IMG/VR virus record: IMGVR_UViG_3300029998_000020
Span: 1 to 64,000 of that record
Direction: 5' to 3' (one strand)
DNA length: 64,000 bases
From: a virus
The notes beneath the pieces are model-generated. The model saw only the letters and a list, made by a program, of their open reading frames with translations. It was not told the DNA's origin and searched no databases. Positions 10,546-53,346 of this stretch are shown here, one piece after another. A program made the translations under genes and the position numbers. Numbering within the stretch: the stretch's first letter is position 1; each line of letters opens with the position of its first letter.

Positions 10546-10969
10546 TTAATTTAATTCTTTATAGTAACCTTTATATTTTATGTTTGTTGTAGAATAGCCA
10601 AGTTTTTCCATTTTATCAGGTTTTACTGTTTCAACATAACCATCCAAATAAAGCCAAGTAATACCTATTTCTTTACATTTTTCTTCATAGTGTTTTAATA
10701 ATTTAACACCAATTCCAGTATTTTGATATTTAGGTAATACACCAACACTCCATAGCATGGAGCCTTGGCATAATAATTTTTCACCTAATACAAATCCAAC
10801 ACATTCTTCATCTAATTCATAGGTGAAAAATAAATCTGTTAGACTTATAAGTTCTAAATACCAATCATAGTAAGATATTCCACCTTCAGTAGATGTGTTG
10901 CTTAATCCTGGTGCATTTGAAATTTCACAGATTTTTTAATAAATCTTTTTCAATTGTTTTTCTTATCAT
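10546..10969 (-). pseudogene. GNAT-family acetyltransferase with a homopolymer frameshift
   Basis: From ATG 10969 the frame reads MIRKTIEKDLLK and then hits a stop. After dropping one A from the six-A run (10932-10937 on the plus strand) it continues ICEISNAPGLSNTS ... through the intact ORF to 10546. The acetyl-CoA motif is present (SVGVLPKYQNTGIGVKLLKH, the R/QxxGxG/A loop), followed by YLDGYVETVKPDKMEKLGY. The promoter at 10989-11019 is correctly placed. Without the shift, only a 70-residue C-terminal piece is made. Mutation, slippage-dependent expression and assembly error cannot be separated here. Confidence 0.7.
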
Positions 10970-10988
10970 TTTTAGGTTTAATTATTTA

Positions 10989-11019
10989 CAAATATACAAA
11001 AAATAATTGACATATCAAA
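10989..11019 (-). promoter_or_regulatory. Bacteroidota-type promoter
   Basis: On the minus strand: TTTG (11016-11019), 19-nt spacer, TATATTTG (10989-10996), about 20 nt upstream of the GNAT start. Confidence 0.7.
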
Positions 11020-11021
11020 AT

Positions 11022-11192
11022 TTATTTGGTTATGTTTTTATCTAAATATTCTTTCCACATCTGTTCAACAAATTCTGAACGATTTATATTGTTATCTTTG
11101 AGGTATTTATCTATCTTATCAAAAACATCATTATTTATTGATATGCTTATGTTCTTCTTCTTTTCTTCTGTTTCTTTTTTTGGTCTACCCAT
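11022..11192 (-). CDS. Ribbon-helix-helix DNA-binding protein, 56 aa
   Basis: The frame MGRPKKETEEKKKNISISIN ... DVFDKIDKYLKDNNINRSEF is a CopG/Arc-type ribbon-helix-helix protein: a basic GRPKK arm, a beta strand (NISISI), then two helices split by NINRSEF. It is divergent from the plus-strand RHH gene at 11302, with about 110 nt between them. It probably represses its own or neighbouring transcription. Confidence 0.85.
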   Translation of the reverse strand: MGRPKKETEEKKKNISISINNDVFDKIDKYLKDNNINRSEFVEQMWKEYLDKNITK

Positions 11193-11269
11193 GATTTATT
11201 TTATATTTTACTATTATATATGAAAAAATATTCTTGGTTTAAAAATAGAAAAATATGACTTATTTTTAT

Positions 11270-11280
11270 TTATATATAGA
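11270..11280 (+). promoter_or_regulatory. Putative late-type promoter (TATATATAGA)
   Basis: TTTATATATAGATAAAAATGA lies 22-32 nt upstream of the RHH start at 11302 and resembles the sequences before the RHH at 50706 and the gene at 57296, all three heading endonuclease-containing units. Confidence 0.4.
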
Positions 11281-11301: not shown

Positions 11302-11463
11302 ATGAAAACAGAAAGAAACACAAAAGTAATGTCAATAACTATAGATAAGGATGTATATGACAAAATATCAGAATTAGTTAATAACAAATCCAAATTTACT
11401 GAATGGCTATTCATTAACTATTTAGATAACATCGGAATTGATGTAAAAAATATAAAATTTTAA
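11302..11463 (+). CDS. Ribbon-helix-helix protein paired with endonuclease, 53 aa
   Basis: The frame MKTERNTKVMSITIDKDVYD ... ISELVNNKSKFTEWLFINYL shows the RHH pattern: strand MSITID, helix 1, turn NNKSKF, helix 2. It ends 1 nt before the HNH endonuclease start at 11465, so the two are almost certainly co-translated. A similar pair occurs at 50706-51825 with a different nuclease family. Confidence 0.8.
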   Translation: MKTERNTKVMSITIDKDVYDKISELVNNKSKFTEWLFINYLDNIGIDVKNIKF

Positions 11464-11464
11464 A

Positions 11465-12328
11465 ATGGATTATTTAAAAATATATAAAAAATTGATAACA
11501 AATGCAATAGAAAGGACAATTTCTGATAATGAAGTATATGAAAAACATCATATAATATCAAAATGTATATTCAATGATAACTATTCTATATCAGTATTTA
11601 ATGATTATTATAAATTAGTCAAATCAAAATATAGTCTTAGTAATGTAGTTAAATTAACACTAAGAGAGCATTATATTTCACATTTATTGTTGGTTAGAAT
11701 TTTTGAAAAAAATAAAAATTGTCATTTTAAATTATTATGTGCTGCAAATTTTTTGACCAACAGAACAAAAAATAATAGGGAATATGAATGGCAAAAGAAA
11801 GAATACATTGAGAAATTAAAAATATCTATGACTGGAAAGCCAAGTAGAGCAAAAGGAAAAAAATGGTCAGAAGAATCAAAGAAAAATAAATCAGGCACAA
11901 ATCATTATATGTATAATAAAAATTATGATGAACTTTATGGATTAGAAAAATCTCAAGAGTTGAAAGAAAATAGAAGAAATTCACAATTAGGTAGAATAAA
12001 ATCAACTGAAGAAAAAAATAAATTATCTAACAGAATATTCACAGAAGAATGGAAAAATAATATATCAAAAAATAAAAAAGGTAAAAAACTATCAGAAACA
12101 AATAAAGATAATATTAAGAAGTTTATGTTAAATCCAGATTTGAACCCGAATGTGGATCAGACATTATATAAATTTTACCATATAGATGGCAGGGAAATTA
12201 TATCAAGAAAAATTGAAATGAAAAAAAATTATAATTGTACAGACATACACAAAATAATAAGCGGTATTAGAAAAATTTCTAAAGGATGGAGGTATAAAGG
12301 AGAAATAATAAAAAAAAGTGATGAATAA
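11465..12328 (+). CDS. HNH homing endonuclease with NUMOD3-like repeats, 287 aa
   Basis: Residues about 25-75 hold an HNH-type core: YEKHHIISKC, a Leu-rich spacer, then VKLTLREHYISHLLL. Residues 125-210 carry NUMOD3-like DNA-binding repeats (GKPSRAKGKKWSEESKKN, KGKKLSETNKDNIKK), and the C-terminus (IHKIISGIRKISKGWRYKG) looks like a NUMOD1-type helix-turn-helix. It is plus strand in a minus-strand neighbourhood, between convergent gene ends, as expected for an inserted free-standing homing endonuclease. Confidence 0.85.
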   Translation: MDYLKIYKKLITNAIERTISDNEVYEKHHIISKCIFNDNYSISVFNDYYKLVKSKYSLSNVVKLTLREHYISHLLLVRIFEKNKNCHFKLLCAANFLTNRTKNNREYEWQKKEYIEKLKISMTGKPSRAKGKKWSEESKKNKSGTNHYMYNKNYDELYGLEKSQELKENRRNSQLGRIKSTEEKNKLSNRIFTEEWKNNISKNKKGKKLSETNKDNIKKFMLNPDLNPNVDQTLYKFYHIDGREIISRKIEMKKNYNCTDIHKIISGIRKISKGWRYKGEIIKKSDE

Positions 12329-12340
12329 TCATCACTTTTT
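12311..12340. terminator. Bidirectional terminator
   Basis: AAAAAGTGATGA-ATAA-TCATCACTTTTT overlaps the last codons of the HNH gene and faces the convergent radical SAM gene. Confidence 0.8.
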
Positions 12341-23261: not shown

Positions 23262-25136
23262 TTATTTTATTTCCTCAAAATCCACGTCTGTTACATTTTC
23301 AGAATCATCTTTTTTGTCAGATGAATTGCTTTCATTCGTTGACTGATTTTTTGATTCTTCATAAAGTTTACCACTAATGTTTTGCCAAACATCATTAAGT
23401 TCTTTGGTGTATTTATCAATATTATCAACATTTTGAGTTTTGTGAGCTTCTTTAAGATTATCAAGTTTAGAATTCAATTCAGTTTTGTTTTCTTCATTCA
23501 ATTTATCACCAAATTCTTCAATTTGTTTTTCAGTTTGAAAAATCATTGAGTCAGCTTGATTCAACTTATCAACTTTTTCTTTTTCTTTCTTATCAGCATC
23601 AGAATTTTGTTCAGCTTCCATTTTCATTCTTTCAATCTCTTCTTTTGTTAGAGATGAATTACCTTCAATCCTAATGTCATTCTTTTTTCCTGTTGCTTTA
23701 TCAACTGCAGTAACTGTCAAAATATTATTTGCATCAATTGAAAACGAAATTTCTATTTGCGGTACTCCTCGTCTGGCTGGCATAATTCCATCTAAATTAA
23801 AAGTTCCCAACATTTTATTATCCTTAAACATACTTCTATTTCCAGTTGAAACATTAATCTGAACACCAGGCTGATTGTCAGTGGCTGTACTGAATATTTG
23901 TGTCTTAGTTGTAGGAATTGTTGTATTAGCCTCTACCATGACACTGGCTACACCGCCCATACTCTCCAGTGAGAAGTTTAAAGCTGTAACATCGAGTAAT
24001 AAGATGTCAGTTGTATCACCAGCAAGAACAGATGCTTGTATAGCTGCACCTGATGCAATTGCAGTATCAGGATTAAGTGACTTATTCGCTTTCTTACCAA
24101 AATATTTTTCAATACTTTCTGACAAATATGGAATTCTAGTGCTACCTCCAACAAGTACAATTTCGTCAATATCTGAAACTTTCTTACCACTTTTATTCAT
24201 TGATGATTGAATCAATGATATTGTTTTATCAACATAGAATTGAATCAATTGTTCAAATTTAGATCTTGTTAATTTTTGAACCAAATGTTTAGGTTGTCCA
24301 TCTACAGCAGTGATGTATGGTAAATTTATTTCTGTTTGTGTAGTATTAGACAATTCTATTTTTGCTTTTTCTGATGCTTCTGTAACACGTTGTAGAGCCA
24401 TTGGATCTTTACGAATATCAACGCCTGTTTCTTTTAAAAATTCATCAGATATAAAATTCACAAGTGCGTCATCAATTAAATTACCACCTAAATCTAAATC
24501 ACCATCAGTTCCAATAACTTCAAATAATCCGTCCTCTATATCTAAAACTGAAAAATCACTTGTACACCCACCACTATCAACTATCATATAAAGTTTACCA
24601 GTTTTATCTTTAATATTTAATGATGCTGCTGTTGGTTCAGATATAATTCTATCAACAGTAAATCCTGCTATTTCACCTGCAACTTTTGTACTGCTTCTTT
24701 CATCTGAATTGAAATATGCTGGAGTTGTTATGACCGCATTGGTTACATTTGTTCCAAGGTAATCTTCTGCTGTTTTTTTCATTTTTTGAAGGATCATTGC
24801 AGAAATTTCTTCTGGTGAATATATTCTTTCACCAATTTTTACACCAGCCTTACCATTATTATCAACTATATCATAAGGACGTTTAAGATGTTTAACTTCC
24901 TCATAAGTTCTACCAATAAGTCTTTTGATATTAAAAATTGTGTTTTTTGGATTTAATGCTGCTTGTCTTTTTGCAGATTCACCAACTTTAATTTCTCCTG
25001 TTTTTTCATCAAATGATACAATTGAAGGAGTTGATAGCGATCCTTCTGAATTAGGTATGACAATTGTTTGTCCACCTTCTACTATAGATACGGCTGAATT
25101 GTATGAACCTAAATCTATTCCAATAATTTTTCCCAT
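23262..25136 (-). CDS. dnaK: DnaK/Hsp70 chaperone, 624 aa
   Basis: Full-length Hsp70. Nucleotide domain: Asp8 in GIDLGSYNSAV (usually GIDLGTTNS), Lys71 in NIKRLIGR, Glu167 in SEPTAAS, and phosphate-2 loop DSGGCTSD (usually DLGGGTFD), which keeps both Asp and the Thr. The linker DILLLDVTALN is followed by a substrate domain with ESMGGVASVMVEANTTIPT and the helical lid, and the bacterial end VTDVDFEEIK. It presumably folds or assembles phage proteins with host co-chaperones; no dnaJ or grpE is in the window. The altered phosphate loops suggest divergence from the host copy. A complete dnaK is rare in phages. Confidence 0.95.
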   Translation of the reverse strand: MGKIIGIDLGSYNSAVSIVEGGQTIVIPNSEGSLSTPSIVSFDEKTGEIKVGESAKRQAALNPKNTIFNIKRLIGRTYEEVKHLKRPYDIVDNNGKAGVKIGERIYSPEEISAMILQKMKKTAEDYLGTNVTNAVITTPAYFNSDERSSTKVAGEIAGFTVDRIISEPTAASLNIKDKTGKLYMIVDSGGCTSDFSVLDIEDGLFEVIGTDGDLDLGGNLIDDALVNFISDEFLKETGVDIRKDPMALQRVTEASEKAKIELSNTTQTEINLPYITAVDGQPKHLVQKLTRSKFEQLIQFYVDKTISLIQSSMNKSGKKVSDIDEIVLVGGSTRIPYLSESIEKYFGKKANKSLNPDTAIASGAAIQASVLAGDTTDILLLDVTALNFSLESMGGVASVMVEANTTIPTTKTQIFSTATDNQPGVQINVSTGNRSMFKDNKMLGTFNLDGIMPARRGVPQIEISFSIDANNILTVTAVDKATGKKNDIRIEGNSSLTKEEIERMKMEAEQNSDADKKEKEKVDKLNQADSMIFQTEKQIEEFGDKLNEENKTELNSKLDNLKEAHKTQNVDNIDKYTKELNDVWQNISGKLYEESKNQSTNESNSSDKKDDSENVTDVDFEEIK

Positions 25137-40586: not shown

Positions 40587-40892
40587 TTAATTCATTTTGA
40601 AATATTTATCATAAACAAACTCAGCGGTATATTCTTTTCTTTTATCTTTAAGATTATTTATTTCTTCTAATATTTCTGGATTGTTATCAAACATATTTTT
40701 TAGATAAGATTCCGCTTCATCTAATTGATTAAAAGACTTTTCACTTATATGTTTTTCATTACAATATATGTGTGATATGTGATCAAATACATCATCAACA
40801 TAATTTCTTACTGGAAATTTCCATCCAAATGAATTTATTTCATATTCTGGATTTTTATTGTACATTTCCGTTATTAATTTAACGTGATTCAT
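40587..40892 (-). CDS. Hypothetical protein, 101 aa
   Basis: Begins MNHVKLITEMYNKNPEYEIN; contains DVFDHISHIYCNEKHISEKS. Ends YDKYFKMN. A TATATATAC motif lies 20-30 nt upstream. No family recognised. Confidence 0.6.
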   Translation of the reverse strand: MNHVKLITEMYNKNPEYEINSFGWKFPVRNYVDDVFDHISHIYCNEKHISEKSFNQLDEAESYLKNMFDNNPEILEEINNLKDKRKEYTAEFVYDKYFKMN

Positions 40893-40920
40893 TTAAATAT
40901 ATTTATTTTTCAGTATATAT

Positions 40921-40953
40921 AAAAAAAAATACACTTAAATAAGTGTATTTTTT
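40921..40953. terminator. Terminator
   Basis: AAAAAATACACTTA-AAT-AAGTGTATTTTTT, overlapping the 3' end of the DHH gene. Confidence 0.8.
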
Positions 40954-42794
40954 AATAATATTTCAAACTTTATATTTGTATCATTTTTAATATATACTCT
41001 ATTCATTATATTGAAAATATATTTAAATATTCTTTTAAGTTCTTTTCTTTGAGTTTTTCTTGCATCTATTAGAGTGCTACTGTAAATATCATTCAATTCA
41101 AATTTTGTATAAATTTTTTCAAATAGTATACTATTTTCAATGTCTTTATTTCTTTTGAAATATATTTTTTCTAAATCATTTGATTTTACTGTTCTACATT
41201 TAATTTCATTAAAGTCTGTATCTAGCCAAATATCATATATTTTTCTGATAGTATCATTTTTGAATTTTGAAATTATATTTTCATCTTTAATACTATTTGT
41301 AATAATATAATTTAATATTTCTATTTCATCATTTTCAACTTTAATATCATTTTCACTACTAATATTATTAATATCCATTAATTTTTTATTGACTTCATCA
41401 GGTGCAAAAACTTTGCCTTTTTCATCTGATTCATTCCAAGCCATTGTGATACCCCACTTAACTCCTGAAATATCATTAATAATTTTATTTCTTAATAAAT
41501 CTAAAAATTTAATATTTTTATAATTTTCTTTTTTGCATTTTTTGAAAATATTAGATATTGAACCAATACCAGTATGTCCACCTGCAACTGTTCTATCATC
41601 ATCATATTCTAAATGTTGTTTGAAGTTTTTTAATAAACCATCCATATATGAACCTAAATTATCAATTGGTATACCATTCTTATCTTTTGGTAAATCATCT
41701 GGCGACATATCAGACATTTTAGTTGTCAAATTTGCAATTTGAAGTGTATTACCATATTGTAACAGAACGAAATTTAATTTAGTATTATACTGAATAATAC
41801 CTGATTCAACATCTTGTGAAAAAATAGCCTTAGCTCTTAATGCATTCGCCCAAGTTCCTGACGGTACATACATTAAATTTCCTATTATTTGATATACAAC
41901 AGGCTTAACTTGCCATTTTAATTCATCAGTATTTATTACATTACCTTCATCATCATGATCTATGTATGGAATTTTTTGTGCAAATTTTTTCCAAAATTCA
42001 TCTTGTGATGAAAATATTATTTTTTTACCATCTTCTGTGAACCCTTGTGATTCATTTCCAATACCTTTTGTTTTTGATTTCATTTGTTCTAATCTTAAAT
42101 ATGCATCAGATACAAATTCAGGTTCATCACCATTTTTGAAATTAGGATTATTTTTAGGATAGAATATTTTAAATAATCTGAAAATGTTATATATTGATGG
42201 TTCTTGAGATGCATTTATAACTTCAATAAATGTTTTATGGTCAGAACGCTTGAGCATTTGATTAAATGATGCTGCAAAATTTAACTTTGCATTATCACTA
42301 TTGATAATATTATTTAAATCAAAATCTAATATACCTTTGATGTCTACATGATACTCATCATATTTTGCAGAATCAATCATGTCTATCCAATCTTTTGTGT
42401 CATTTGAAAATGGTATGCCTAATTGTTGAGCTAAACCTTCAGCTGCAGAACCAGTATTTGTTTTTATACTACCTTTCTTTTGTGCTATTATTTTCTCTTC
42501 TTCAGAAAAAATTCCATGGTGGTCGACATAATAATTAAATGACTCATCATCCGAAGAAAAATCTAATGTTATATTAATCAGTGAGTTATCTAATTTGAAT
42601 GCATCAACACCTTCTTGGTAATCAATCAAACCATATCTAAGAATTTTAAAATCATGATTAATTAAATAATTCTTCATTATTATTGCGGAAACTATTCCGT
42701 CTAAATCATTGTGTGTAATTAAACATACATTTTTTCCAGATTTGCCTTTTTTTAGCCAATAATTTATATCATTTGGAAGTCTTGGTGCAGCCAT
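40935..42794 (-). CDS. DHH-family phosphoesterase with long C-terminal extension, 619 aa
   Basis: N-terminal VCLITHNDLDGIVSAII (DHH motif I, Asp cluster), TLDFSSDDE, YYVDHHGIFSEEE (the DHH motif) and later DRTVAGGHTGIGSISN (DHHA1-type GGH). These are features of RecJ/NrnA-like exonucleases or oligoribonucleases acting with Mn2+. The C-terminal ~170 residues are unrelated to any domain I know. Own promoter at 42820-42850. Likely nucleotide recycling or DNA/RNA end processing. Confidence 0.8.
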   Translation of the reverse strand: MAAPRLPNDINYWLKKGKSGKNVCLITHNDLDGIVSAIIMKNYLINHDFKILRYGLIDYQEGVDAFKLDNSLINITLDFSSDDESFNYYVDHHGIFSEEEKIIAQKKGSIKTNTGSAAEGLAQQLGIPFSNDTKDWIDMIDSAKYDEYHVDIKGILDFDLNNIINSDNAKLNFAASFNQMLKRSDHKTFIEVINASQEPSIYNIFRLFKIFYPKNNPNFKNGDEPEFVSDAYLRLEQMKSKTKGIGNESQGFTEDGKKIIFSSQDEFWKKFAQKIPYIDHDDEGNVINTDELKWQVKPVVYQIIGNLMYVPSGTWANALRAKAIFSQDVESGIIQYNTKLNFVLLQYGNTLQIANLTTKMSDMSPDDLPKDKNGIPIDNLGSYMDGLLKNFKQHLEYDDDRTVAGGHTGIGSISNIFKKCKKENYKNIKFLDLLRNKIINDISGVKWGITMAWNESDEKGKVFAPDEVNKKLMDINNISSENDIKVENDEIEILNYIITNSIKDENIISKFKNDTIRKIYDIWLDTDFNEIKCRTVKSNDLEKIYFKRNKDIENSILFEKIYTKFELNDIYSSTLIDARKTQRKELKRIFKYIFNIMNRVYIKNDTNIKFEILLKNTLI

Positions 42795-50534: not shown

Positions 50535-50705
50535 ATTTTAATAATATAGTAATAAAAAAAATTATAGTTTATAAATTATATATAAATTTTAAATTACCAG
50601 AATCAAAAATTCTATATATTTTTCTATCTAACATAATTTGTCAATTAATTGGTATCAAAAAATTAATAAATACCACCTTTTTATTTTTATATATAAAAAT
50701 AAAAA

Positions 50706-50858
50706 ATGAAAAACAAATCAAAAATTTCGATATCATTAAAAAATGAATTGATAGATTATTTAAATGACTTGAGTTTAAATAAATCTAAATTTATAGAAAA
50801 ATTAATAGAAGAGTATAAAATAATAAAAATAAATAATGATAATAACAAAAAAAGTTAA
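50706..50858 (+). CDS. Ribbon-helix-helix protein paired with endonuclease, 50 aa
   Basis: MKNKSKISISLKNELIDYLN, DLSLNKSKFIEKLIEEYKII: strand KISISL, helix, turn LNKSKF, helix, the RHH pattern also seen at 11302 (NNKSKFTEWL). It overlaps the nuclease gene by 23 nt. Confidence 0.8.
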   Translation: MKNKSKISISLKNELIDYLNDLSLNKSKFIEKLIEEYKIIKINNDNNKKS

Positions 50859-51825
50859 AATTCATATTAAAGGAATATCAATAAAAAGATATAAAAAATT
50901 AGGTTATAATGTTGATACTAAAGGATTAAATACTATTAATGTTGAAGATCTTCCTAAATGTAGTAATATTAAAGTCATGGTGAAATGTGATAATTGTGAT
51001 TATGAAAAAGAATTAAAGATTCAAGATTATTATTTATCTTTTAAAAATAATAAATATTGTTGTAATAAATGCTCATATGAAAATTATAAAAAAACAATGT
51101 TAGAAAGATATGGAGTTGAAAATGGATTTCAATATAAAGACATAAAAGAAAAATCTAATAGCACTAAAATAAAATTATATGGAGATGAAAATTACAATAA
51201 TAGAGAAAAAGCGATAGAAACATGTTTAGATAAATATGGTGTTGAAAATCCTAATCAAAATTATAAAATAAAAAAAAAATCTAATAATACTTGCTTAGAA
51301 AAATATGGATTTGAAACAGCATCTAAAAATGAAAAAGTAAAGGAAAAAATAAAAAAAACAAATTTGAAAAGATGGAACAGTACATGTACATTACATTCAG
51401 AAAAACAAATTGATAAAATTAAACAAATATTTATTGATAAATATGGAGTTGATAATCCTATGAAGAATTTAGAAATATTTTTAAAAGCCCAAAAAACAGC
51501 TCTAAATCGTAAAAAATTTAAAGAAACTGAATTATTATATCAAGGTACATATGAATTAGATTTTTTAAATAATTATTATGAAAAAATTAATATTGAAAAT
51601 GGTAAATCAATAAAAATAATTTATAATAATAATAAAACTGTGTATCATTCTGATTTTTTTTTATCTGAAAAAAATTTAATTATAGAAATAAAATCATCAT
51701 ATTGGTATAATAGATATTATGATAAAAATATAATTAAACAAAAAGAATGTGAAAAATTAGGATATAATTATATCATAATAATAGATAAAAATTATAATGA
51801 TTTTAATAAATTAATAATGATTTAA
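50836..51825 (+). CDS. Free-standing homing endonuclease, PD-(D/E)XK/Vsr-like, 329 aa
   Basis: An N-terminal zinc-ribbon (VKCDNCDYEKEL ... YCCNKCSYE) is followed by repeated ~30-residue DNA-binding units with the signature YGVENPxQ (LERYGVENGFQYKDIKEKSN, LDKYGVENPNQNYKIKKKSN, IDKYGVDNPMKN). The C-terminal nuclease domain has VYHSDFFLSEKNLIIEIKSS with Asp and Glu-Ile-Lys as active-site residues, then KQKECEKLGYNYIIIIDKNY. It lies between a tRNA-like gene and the split polymerase gene. The remnant inside guaB (4781-4906) is from the same family. Confidence 0.85.
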   Translation: MIITKKVKIHIKGISIKRYKKLGYNVDTKGLNTINVEDLPKCSNIKVMVKCDNCDYEKELKIQDYYLSFKNNKYCCNKCSYENYKKTMLERYGVENGFQYKDIKEKSNSTKIKLYGDENYNNREKAIETCLDKYGVENPNQNYKIKKKSNNTCLEKYGFETASKNEKVKEKIKKTNLKRWNSTCTLHSEKQIDKIKQIFIDKYGVDNPMKNLEIFLKAQKTALNRKKFKETELLYQGTYELDFLNNYYEKINIENGKSIKIIYNNNKTVYHSDFFLSEKNLIIEIKSSYWYNRYYDKNIIKQKECEKLGYNYIIIIDKNYNDFNKLIMI

Positions 51826-51866
51826 AATAAAACAACTTAGATTTTAATCTAAGTTGTTTTATTTTT
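51824..51866. terminator. Bidirectional terminator
   Basis: An 18-bp stem AATAAAACAACTTAGATT with AATCTAAGTTGTTTTATT between convergent genes. Confidence 0.85.
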
Positions 51867-53346
51867 ATATATTTGTTTCTTCTAATTTTTTTAATTCATC
51901 TTTTAACTTTTCAAGTTCTTCGTGTTTTTGATTCATTACTTTCTTCCATTTTTTTCTATCAGAATAAACTTCTCCCATTACTTGAGTAACAACACCATCT
52001 TCATTCTTAAATACTGATCCATTGAGAGTTACAATATCATCAGGTTCAATTGTTAATTGATGTCCATTAAATAATGAGTAATCTTTACCTTTTACTTTTT
52101 GTCCTTTATATGAGTCTGCTGATATGTTAAATTCTCTCATTGTGGTAGGATACAGGGATGCGAAGTCAAAACAACAAGTCCATGTTGCCATTCCTCTCAC
52201 TGGATCTTTAACCCATCCACCTTTAATAGATTCAGATTCAGAATCACTATATTCACTATCTTCATTTCTTACAAGTACAATATTCTTTTGATCTCTTAAT
52301 TTTTCTCTTAAAATTCCTTCTGTCAGTGCAAGTGTTGAAATTGCATCTTTAATTTTAATTTTACCTAATACAGCCATACCATAAAGAATATCTACATATT
52401 TCATTTTAACGTGAATTCTTTGTACCAGACAACTATCTACAGCATTATAAAAAACGAATTTCTTAAAATCTTCTCTATGTAATCTTTTTAAATCTCCATC
52501 ATAGTTAATTTTCTTGACTTCTTTACCAAGAATTTTTTCTGATGCAAAATCAAGAGATAAACTTTCTTTAACTTTAACAGATTGATCCCATTTCTTAAAT
52601 AATTCCATATAATCCACTATAACTCTATGAGCTGGTAATTCAGCATAATCTAAATGTATTGCATTAGGAGGATTGAATGGTTTGTTAAGTTTCTTTGTGA
52701 AAGATGCTACTTCAGGTTCTAGTCCTAATTTTCTTGCCCTTGCAACTAAGAATGTCCAGTCATATGCAATAAAATTCCAGCCAGTCATTACTGGCATTTT
52801 TGGAACTAATTTATTGAAAAATGCATGAAGCATATCAAATTCAGTTTTATAATGAACATATTTAAATTTATAATCAGTATCAAATTTTTTGAAGTGAGTA
52901 TTTAAATCTGATTCAATGTTTTCAATTTGTTTTGAATCCAGTGATTCTGTTCCAATTACTAACACTTTATTCTTATTTACAATTGATATTGTTTGAATCG
53001 CACTTTCTGCTAAATGAGGTTCAGGTTTTTTATCTAATATTTCATTTTCAATATCGACAAAGAATATATCTGGTTCATTATAACTATATATTTCATTTTT
53101 TTCATCTTCATCAAAACTATCAATAAAATCATAAATAGAATATCTATTAGGATATTTTGTGAATATTTCTTTTACAGCACTACCATCCCATGTAACATAT
53201 CTACCAGATTTTTCTGAATCATCATCAGTAGTTTTTATGAATTTTGTACATCTTGCCCAAGGTTTATATTTTAATTTTATTTGACCTGATTTATCTATGT
53301 AACTTATTATAAGGTTATTATTTCTGTATTCTGTGTCTATAAGCAT
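51865..53346 (-). CDS. Family B DNA polymerase, N-terminal part (gp43-like), 493 aa
   Basis: Exonuclease motifs: FFVDIENE (Asp98, Glu100), GWNFIAYDWTFL and FYNAVDSCLV; then polymerase motif A, CCFDFASLYPTTMREFNISA (about residue 393). The frame ends soon after, in DRKKWKKVMNQKHEELEKLK, which corresponds to the fingers domain, so motifs B (KxxxNSxYG) and C (DTD) are missing. No intein sequence at the end. The C-terminal half must be encoded outside the window for activity. Split gene 43 is known in some Aeromonas T4-like phages. Confidence 0.9.
   Translation of the reverse strand: MLIDTEYRNNNLIISYIDKSGQIKLKYKPWARCTKFIKTTDDDSEKSGRYVTWDGSAVKEIFTKYPNRYSIYDFIDSFDEDEKNEIYSYNEPDIFFVDIENEILDKKPEPHLAESAIQTISIVNKNKVLVIGTESLDSKQIENIESDLNTHFKKFDTDYKFKYVHYKTEFDMLHAFFNKLVPKMPVMTGWNFIAYDWTFLVARARKLGLEPEVASFTKKLNKPFNPPNAIHLDYAELPAHRVIVDYMELFKKWDQSVKVKESLSLDFASEKILGKEVKKINYDGDLKRLHREDFKKFVFYNAVDSCLVQRIHVKMKYVDILYGMAVLGKIKIKDAISTLALTEGILREKLRDQKNIVLVRNEDSEYSDSESESIKGGWVKDPVRGMATWTCCFDFASLYPTTMREFNISADSYKGQKVKGKDYSLFNGHQLTIEPDDIVTLNGSVFKNEDGVVTQVMGEVYSDRKKWKKVMNQKHEELEKLKDELKKLEETNI

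Follow-up and report, generated by a model that had tools for sequence, protein, structure and literature searches.

The RHH-nuclease cassette and its genomic context

The window analysed here, a stretch of 64,000 nucleotides, is identical, base for base across its 64 kb, to positions 59607-123606 of the viral contig IMGVR_UViG_3300029983_000007 (hereafter, G001; 330,208 bases, 24% GC). G001 encodes a family-B DNA polymerase and a type II topoisomerase and is presumably the genome, or a large fragment of the genome, of a T4-like jumbo phage. At the locus of interest, two ribbon-helix-helix (RHH) genes are divergently oriented and separated by 109 bp; RHH-A is transcribed leftward and, on the other side of a predicted operator and promoter, RHH-B is followed by a nuclease gene and a terminator-like hairpin, all in the rightward direction. 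The features, in window coordinates, are as follows:

11022..11192, minus strand: RHH-A, 56 aa, probable operator-binding repressor (Pfam RHH_1; class A)
11241..11259, plus strand: predicted operator element AAAAATAGAAAAATATGAC, upstream of the promoter box (fixed distance in the cassettes; matrix match)
11269..11279, plus strand: promoter box TTTATATATAG for the RHH-B/nuclease operon (aligned in 33 intergenic regions)
11302..11463, plus strand: RHH-B, 53 aa, nuclease-coupled RHH partner (AlphaFold; RHH-A profile match; class B)
11465..12328, plus strand: HNH homing endonuclease, 287 aa (phrog_655; HH-N-H residues kept)
12313..12340, no strand assigned: bidirectional terminator-like hairpin at the nuclease gene end (12 pairs)

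The RHH-B stop codon lies 1 nt before the ATG of the HNH ORF, exactly where the original prediction had placed a 53-aa RHH protein and an adjoining HNH nuclease, and the nuclease assignment stands as well (phrog_655, 'homing endonuclease', 3.8e-31 across residues 1-276). The pair described in that prediction is thus real, although it is an incomplete unit, which normally includes two RHH genes; RHH-A, the operator/promoter region and the 12313-12340 hairpin had been missed. This hairpin, present on both strands, has no counterpart in the region scanned (shuffle mean 0.1), and an Rfam search of the window gave no match. In the HNH protein, which matches Pfam NUMOD3 only below the cutoff, residues H28, H29, N60 and H69/H73 are invariant with three annotated T4-type homing endonucleases. 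Its relatives come from 401 phage records and, among the matches listed, show 26-40% identity and belong mostly to T4-type phages; the search for close relatives of this protein alone returned only the same genome. No empty site of the locus was found via the neighbouring radical-SAM gene, for which two relatives with 47% identity were recovered, without synteny, so that mobility of the window copy is presumed. To the left of the cassette (10546-10990), there is a GNAT-like acetyltransferase gene with an apparent frameshift near the N-terminus, seen in both identical records.

The second RHH-nuclease pair of the window, originally reported at 50.7 kb, is equally real and consists of the following elements:

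50669..50697, plus strand: promoter-like element, degenerate, with CACC replacing GAC (matrix match 17.5)
50706..50858, plus strand: RHH-B, 50 aa, without an adjoining RHH-A (class B homologue; weak CcdA/RHH_3 matches)
50836..51825, plus strand: DUF7487 homing-endonuclease-type nuclease, 329 aa (Pfam DUF7487, 1.6e-37; phrog_3339, annotated as homing endonuclease, 1.5e-15)
51824..51865, plus strand: terminator-like hairpin closing the cassette (19 pairs; shuffle mean 0)

Here, the RHH and nuclease ORFs overlap. The single DUF7487 protein scanned matched itself only. The DNA polymerase B gene seems to be split into two pieces, on opposite strands and with about 86 kb between them: the N-terminal piece (window 51865-53346; G001 111471-112952, minus) adjoins this second cassette, and the C-terminal piece (G001 23642-25003, plus) comes after two homing endonucleases.

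Two classes of RHH proteins

RHH-A is the stronger RHH match of the two proteins, with a Pfam RHH_1 score of 22.5 bits against a cutoff of 20.5, and its profile matches the structures of NikR (1.1e-5) and CopG (0.011). When RHH-B was searched alone, there was no Pfam RHH match and no PDB match, and a Foldseek comparison of this very small chain with the PDB gave nothing significant. The AlphaFold model of RHH-B (pLDDT 88), a monomer from which the intermolecular strand is not assignable, has an extended N-terminus followed by helices at residues 16-25 and 29-43, and the RHH-B profile aligns with the RHH-A profile (hhalign, 98.2%, E 3e-14). The succession of a strand and two helices that characterizes RHH proteins of the MetJ/Arc/CopG type is accordingly found in the RHH-B model and, through Pfam RHH_1, in RHH-A; the kinship to proven RHH proteins is direct for RHH-A, via NikR and CopG, and for RHH-B runs through the RHH-A profile. 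By this family evidence, namely, the predicted fold together with the RHH-A profile match, RHH-B is an RHH protein.

The relatives of these proteins form two cleanly separate classes, class A (40 relatives) and class B (47 relatives), the latter being the one that adjoins the nuclease. No RHH-B was detected by tblastn in cultured phages at E up to 1, or in two scans of 84,980 bacterial and archaeal species genomes, where confirmation relied on one sequence and distant copies could escape. Both RHH genes are under purifying selection; in the locus pair L047/L077 described below, dN/dS is about 0.1 (RHH-B) and 0.08 (RHH-A). In four single-RHH cassettes (L059, L078, L079 and L086), an RHH-A-like basic N-terminal arm is combined with an RHH-B-like core, which suggests that one protein could do both jobs.

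Cassettes within G001

An iterative profile search of the whole contig yielded 13 RHH genes in G001, 12 of which belong to seven nuclease cassettes. The only one that is not beside a nuclease (G001 40685-41476) encodes a 263-aa protein with an N-terminal RHH domain and a C-terminal part of unknown function. Five of the seven cassettes are full, with RHH-A facing away from RHH-B and RHH-B followed by the nuclease, and carry HNH, DUF723-like (two) and DUF7487 (two, one broken) payloads; the other two, with DUF7487 at 110 kb (the second pair of the window) and GIY-YIG at 263 kb, contain a single RHH gene. All seven RHH-B-type genes precede a nuclease (hypergeometric P 6e-12, given 18 homing-endonuclease-like genes among about 593 crude genes). 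About eleven further homing-endonuclease-like genes of G001 have no RHH, and therefore, the module is optional. In the cassette with the broken DUF7487 nuclease (G001 211359-212356), several stops interrupt the nuclease gene and the RHH pair is intact.

One of the G001 cassettes is located between split-intein halves in topoisomerase II (177290-182264; L035); the N-terminal half contains a Hint domain (2e-4), and the C-terminal intein part was recognised by eye. Likewise, in L074, a cassette is flanked by the split-intein halves of topoisomerase II. The two split-intein cassettes differ in both their nucleases and their RHH subtypes.

Distribution and payloads in viral genomes

Searches of 2.9 million viral contigs with the RHH alignments alone (57 loci for RHH-B and 29 for RHH-A) revealed about 50 distinct cassettes with the same layout as in G001. 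For 48 of the 53 RHH-B genes, the gap to the nuclease falls within -4 to +3 nt, and the median A-B intergenic spacing is 99 bp. The 53 distinct genes downstream of RHH-B represent, nearly without exception, nuclease families: DUF723 (15 matches), DUF4379 (12), NUMOD3 (6), DUF7487 (5), GIY-YIG (4), T5orf172 (2), LAGLIDADG (1) and TnpB/Cas12f (1), counts that overlap because a single protein can match several families. There are also matches to PHROG families of HNH, homing and VII-type endonucleases (endonuclease VII), and seven of the 53 share phrog_20046 (function unknown), one of these with a weak GIY-YIG homing match. For the payloads of L086 and L067, the searches that name proteins singly gave no clear nuclease match. 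Among the listed payload families, none is a known toxin family (CcdB, ParE, RelE, MazF, HicA), and the RHH-B payload matches include no methyltransferase family.

On the RHH-A side, the downstream genes are for the most part ordinary ones of the phage, such as those for topoisomerase, polB, RtcB and peptidase, and these are the flanks of the insertion. A DUF1848 gene directly follows RHH-A in L104, L108 and L112 (with a 4-nt overlap in two of these), and L108 has TnpB on the RHH-B side. In L062 (2471-3208), RHH-A overlaps an apparent DNA methyltransferase gene (N6_N4_Mtase), the only methyltransferase seen beside RHH-A, such that this one cassette resembles a restriction-modification control unit.

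When approached from the nuclease side, the association looks different. An RHH gene is directly upstream of 9 of 62 distinct DUF723-type genes, and one more has RHH-A only; across the 62 loci, just one other RHH is present anywhere, and about 85% of these nucleases have no RHH. Hence, RHH-B nearly always implies a nuclease, and a nuclease rarely implies an RHH. There are also cassettes with RHH-B only and cassettes with RHH-A only, so that neither RHH is indispensable. The survey bears out the expectation of the original prediction that RHH genes are enriched beside homing endonucleases in other genomes, and that the arrangement recurs with unrelated nuclease families (HNH, GIY-YIG, LAGLIDADG, DUF723, DUF7487 and TnpB).

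A predicted operator common to the cassettes

The 33 A-B intergenic regions align on the TTTATATATA box, which precedes RHH-B by about 20-30 nt; upstream of the box, at a fixed distance, lies a GAC element (3.3 bits for G and 2.3 bits for C). In the GRP-type cassettes, in which RHH-A starts with MGRP, the element and box read AAAATAGAAAAATATGACTTTATTTTATTTATATATACT, as at 11241-11279 of the window. In the RKKL-type cassettes, the corresponding place is taken by 11-bp direct repeats, for example, AATAATTGAAA in L043, with a z of 4.1 for the 11-bp period against shuffles. Tandem sites are typical of RHH operators. The window element (11241-11259) has a matrix score of 28.3, the second highest in the 330-kb genome; the matrix also scores high one ordinary G001 gene (102953, minus, 25.9) with a GAC-type element.

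The TATATATA box is found 18-40 nt upstream of 48 G001 genes of 60 aa or more, and only three of these, including one RHH-B and one DUF7487 nuclease, also have the GAC element. The TWWATATAWA box before these genes has the appearance of a promoter element in general use by the phage. We considered and rejected a sigma-70 promoter: matches to the consensus are not clearly above those in shuffles, and the box is common to other phage genes. The upstream element is therefore read as an operator rather than a -35 box.

A strict search for TGACTTTWWWWWATTTATATATAC at the DNA level, across all viral contigs, returned 42 sites, about 26 of them distinct given that some sequences are repeated among contigs. 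RHH-B follows 31 of the sites (one is cut by the contig end and was identified from the first codons), an HNH gene directly follows two, both with RHH-A opposite, and TnpB follows nine; none precedes an ordinary gene. The nine TnpB sites represent two TnpB types with a AAAATAGAAAAATATGAC-like element upstream. These loci, in which phage TnpB (IS605 OrfB) genes carry the operator/promoter, are L144, L145, L148, L151, L156, L158, L159, L161 and L162. The operator-bearing TnpB genes have no RHH gene directly beside them, and regulation in trans is possible; an RHH cassette and an operator-bearing TnpB can coexist on one contig, as do L137 and L156 on IMGVR_UViG_3300022555_000011. With the DNA signature TGACTTT-N5-ATTTATATATAC, selfish nucleases, among them TnpB, can be located independently of protein homology.

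Covariation within the cassette and exchange of the nuclease

Covariation of the cassette parts was assessed with Spearman Mantel correlations over 32 cassettes. The similarity of RHH-A tracks that of the operator (0.40, p 0.0005; 0.39 with RHH-B held constant), and RHH-B shows hardly any such relationship (0.12, p 0.07; -0.07 given RHH-A). The two RHH proteins covary with each other (0.44), chiefly via helix 2 plus the tail of RHH-A (0.43) and helix 1 (0.32) and the tail (0.37) of RHH-B. Nuclease similarity is correlated with none of RHH-A, RHH-B (rho 0.01) and the operator, all values being about 0, and the RHH-B tail alone likewise shows a rho of 0.01 with the nuclease. The promoter box itself follows RHH-A about as well as the operator does (0.36), and none of the RHH-A segments, each correlated alone with the operator, gives a strong signal. 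This pattern suggests that RHH-A is the protein that binds the operator and that RHH-B is the protein partner of RHH-A. The A-operator covariation could partly reflect linked inheritance, yet RHH-B, which is closer to the operator, shows none. Sequence-specific DNA binding by RHH dimers is a prediction, for which the conserved operator and the A-operator covariation provide indirect evidence.

Two pairs of loci capture the exchange of the nuclease. L047 and L077 are 87% identical from a peptidase gene through RHH-A, the intergenic region and RHH-B to 6 nt past the RHH-B stop; beyond this break, one encodes a GIY-YIG nuclease and the other a DUF723 nuclease. L042 and L044 resemble each other across the RHH pair as far as the RHH-B stop and, once more, from the nuclease end onward, with GIY-YIG in one and LAGLIDADG in the other between the shared parts. 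The RHH pair stays constant and the nuclease behind it is exchangeable, with the break at the RHH-B stop.

A probable portable repressor module for exchangeable homing nucleases

Taken together, these findings make it likely that the window locus is a copy of a mobile cassette in which a portable repressor module limits exchangeable homing nucleases. That the cassette contains a regulatory module is strongly supported; that the regulation consists in repression, as well as the role of RHH-B and the timing, we infer. RHH-A dimers would occupy tandem half-sites that lie upstream of the promoter box, and would thereby repress the promoters in both directions. RHH-B, whose translation is apparently coupled to that of the nuclease, would pair with RHH-A and tune the repression, as a co-repressor or a titrating partner. 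Upon entry of the cassette into a repressor-free genome, a brief burst of nuclease expression would follow; the nuclease would cut the cassette-free allele, into which the cassette would be copied by repair, and the accumulating RHH-A and RHH-B would then shut down expression, limiting damage to the phage. In large uncultivated phages, then, the cutting gene is exchangeable among several unrelated families and its probable on/off switch stays.

The original prediction offered three roles for the RHH partner, of which the present data favour expression control. An accessory, DNA-targeting subunit, that is, RHH-B binding the homing site and delivering the nuclease there, appears unlikely. RHH-B always adjoins the nuclease with a near-zero gap, and many homing nucleases bear extra DNA-binding domains, as such a subunit would lead one to expect; however, the similarities of RHH-B and the nuclease are uncorrelated, at a given locus, one and the same RHH pair goes with GIY-YIG and DUF723 nucleases, or with GIY-YIG and LAGLIDADG nucleases, and RHH is missing from most DUF723-type relatives and from the relatives inspected in cultured T4-type phages. 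Still less credible is a toxin-antitoxin or antidote system, in which RHH-B (or RHH-A) would neutralise the nuclease by binding and a longer-lived nuclease would punish loss of the cassette. RHH proteins are commonly antitoxins, there are weak Pfam matches to CcdA and HicB-like families, and the order of antitoxin and then effector fits, but the listed payload families include no known toxin family, unrelated nuclease folds are served by a single RHH pair, and the RHH-B tail, expected to be the effector-binding part, does not covary with the nuclease.

Another proposal, made for moraphages (PMC12619734), is that the RHH genes benefit the phage as cargo, perhaps as antidotes to the toxin-antitoxin systems with which hosts fend off phages, and would so offset the cost of the selfish nuclease. 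Purifying selection on the RHH genes is compatible with this scenario, which nonetheless seems improbable given that it leaves unexplained the conserved operator between the RHH genes, its covariation with RHH-A, and the operator-bearing TnpB and HNH genes without RHH-B. That the RHH genes are ordinary phage regulators hitch-hiking beside nucleases inserted nearby is very improbable: homing nucleases do insert beside conserved genes, with co-conversion of flanks (PMC2988022), but nearly all RHH genes of G001 are in cassettes, and cassettes occupy many unrelated sites, including the inside of a split intein. Purifying selection, conserved position and the conserved operator all indicate that, as originally proposed, the RHH has a function within the unit.

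A bolder and distinctly more tentative extension of the repressor module is that the operator and RHH-A constitute a trans-acting homing regulon, in which the repressor of one cassette would control every operator-bearing selfish nuclease of the phage, including the RHH-less TnpB. If so, resident cassettes would silence newcomers and coordinate homing, and the RHH platform would be a selfish system of control able to recruit nucleases of any kind, whether guided by protein or by RNA.

Comparison with known systems

Small DNA-binding regulators of dangerous nuclease or replicon genes are well known, namely, the C-proteins of restriction-modification systems, CopG, NikR and Arc. As in these systems, an adjoining small regulator would cap or delay expression in the cassettes, where it is a separate, portable part. 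C-proteins are helix-turn-helix proteins paired with a methyltransferase, which is not consistently present in the cassettes. Free-standing endonuclease genes are also known from split inteins (fractured genes); in contrast to these, the G001 insert adds two RHH genes and an operator, and most cassettes are outside inteins. The T4 mob (HNH) homing endonucleases share with the window nuclease a homologous N-terminal domain, the HH-N-H residues and insertion between phage genes, but no RHH genes were found beside the three mob relatives inspected. In Escherichia phage phT4A, an HNH relative is adjoined by a divergent 64-aa gene, the translation of which was judged by eye not to be RHH-like.

The closest precedent is a report on moraphages (PMC12619734; Arch Virol, November 2025), which describes CcdA/HicB-like antitoxins beside PacI-like putative homing endonucleases and suggests regulation or a fitness offset for the antitoxin-like genes. 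Like the cassettes, the moraphage pairs combine a small RHH/antitoxin-type gene with putative homing endonucleases, in several copies per genome, in large aquatic phages with predicted Bacteroidota hosts. However, the report concerns one lineage and one nuclease type, compared with the many families here, and the section consulted does not describe the divergent RHH-A/RHH-B pair, the operator, the nuclease exchange, the split-intein setting or the TnpB link. The original statement that such pairs are not a described class was thus almost right, this association in a single phage lineage being the exception. In the literature searched, which left out preprints and most subscription papers, the two-RHH layout, the shared operator, the payloads from multiple families, the exchange and the TnpB link appear to be unreported.

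How free-standing homing endonucleases spare their phage is a question that is largely unanswered outside I-TevI. According to PMC2988022, expression of I-TevI (T4 td intron) is limited by a repressor that sits over the promoter of the nuclease, and seven free-standing homing endonuclease genes of T4 are apparently promoterless cassettes. With I-TevI, the nuclease itself is the repressor, whereas the cassette would rely on separate RHH proteins, which are common to unrelated nucleases. The cassette is a real, widespread and under-described regulatory unit of phage homing nucleases; a portable repressor/operator module common to unrelated nucleases offers a general and directly testable answer to this question, and the cassette is a natural example of effector genes being swapped behind a constant regulatory platform.
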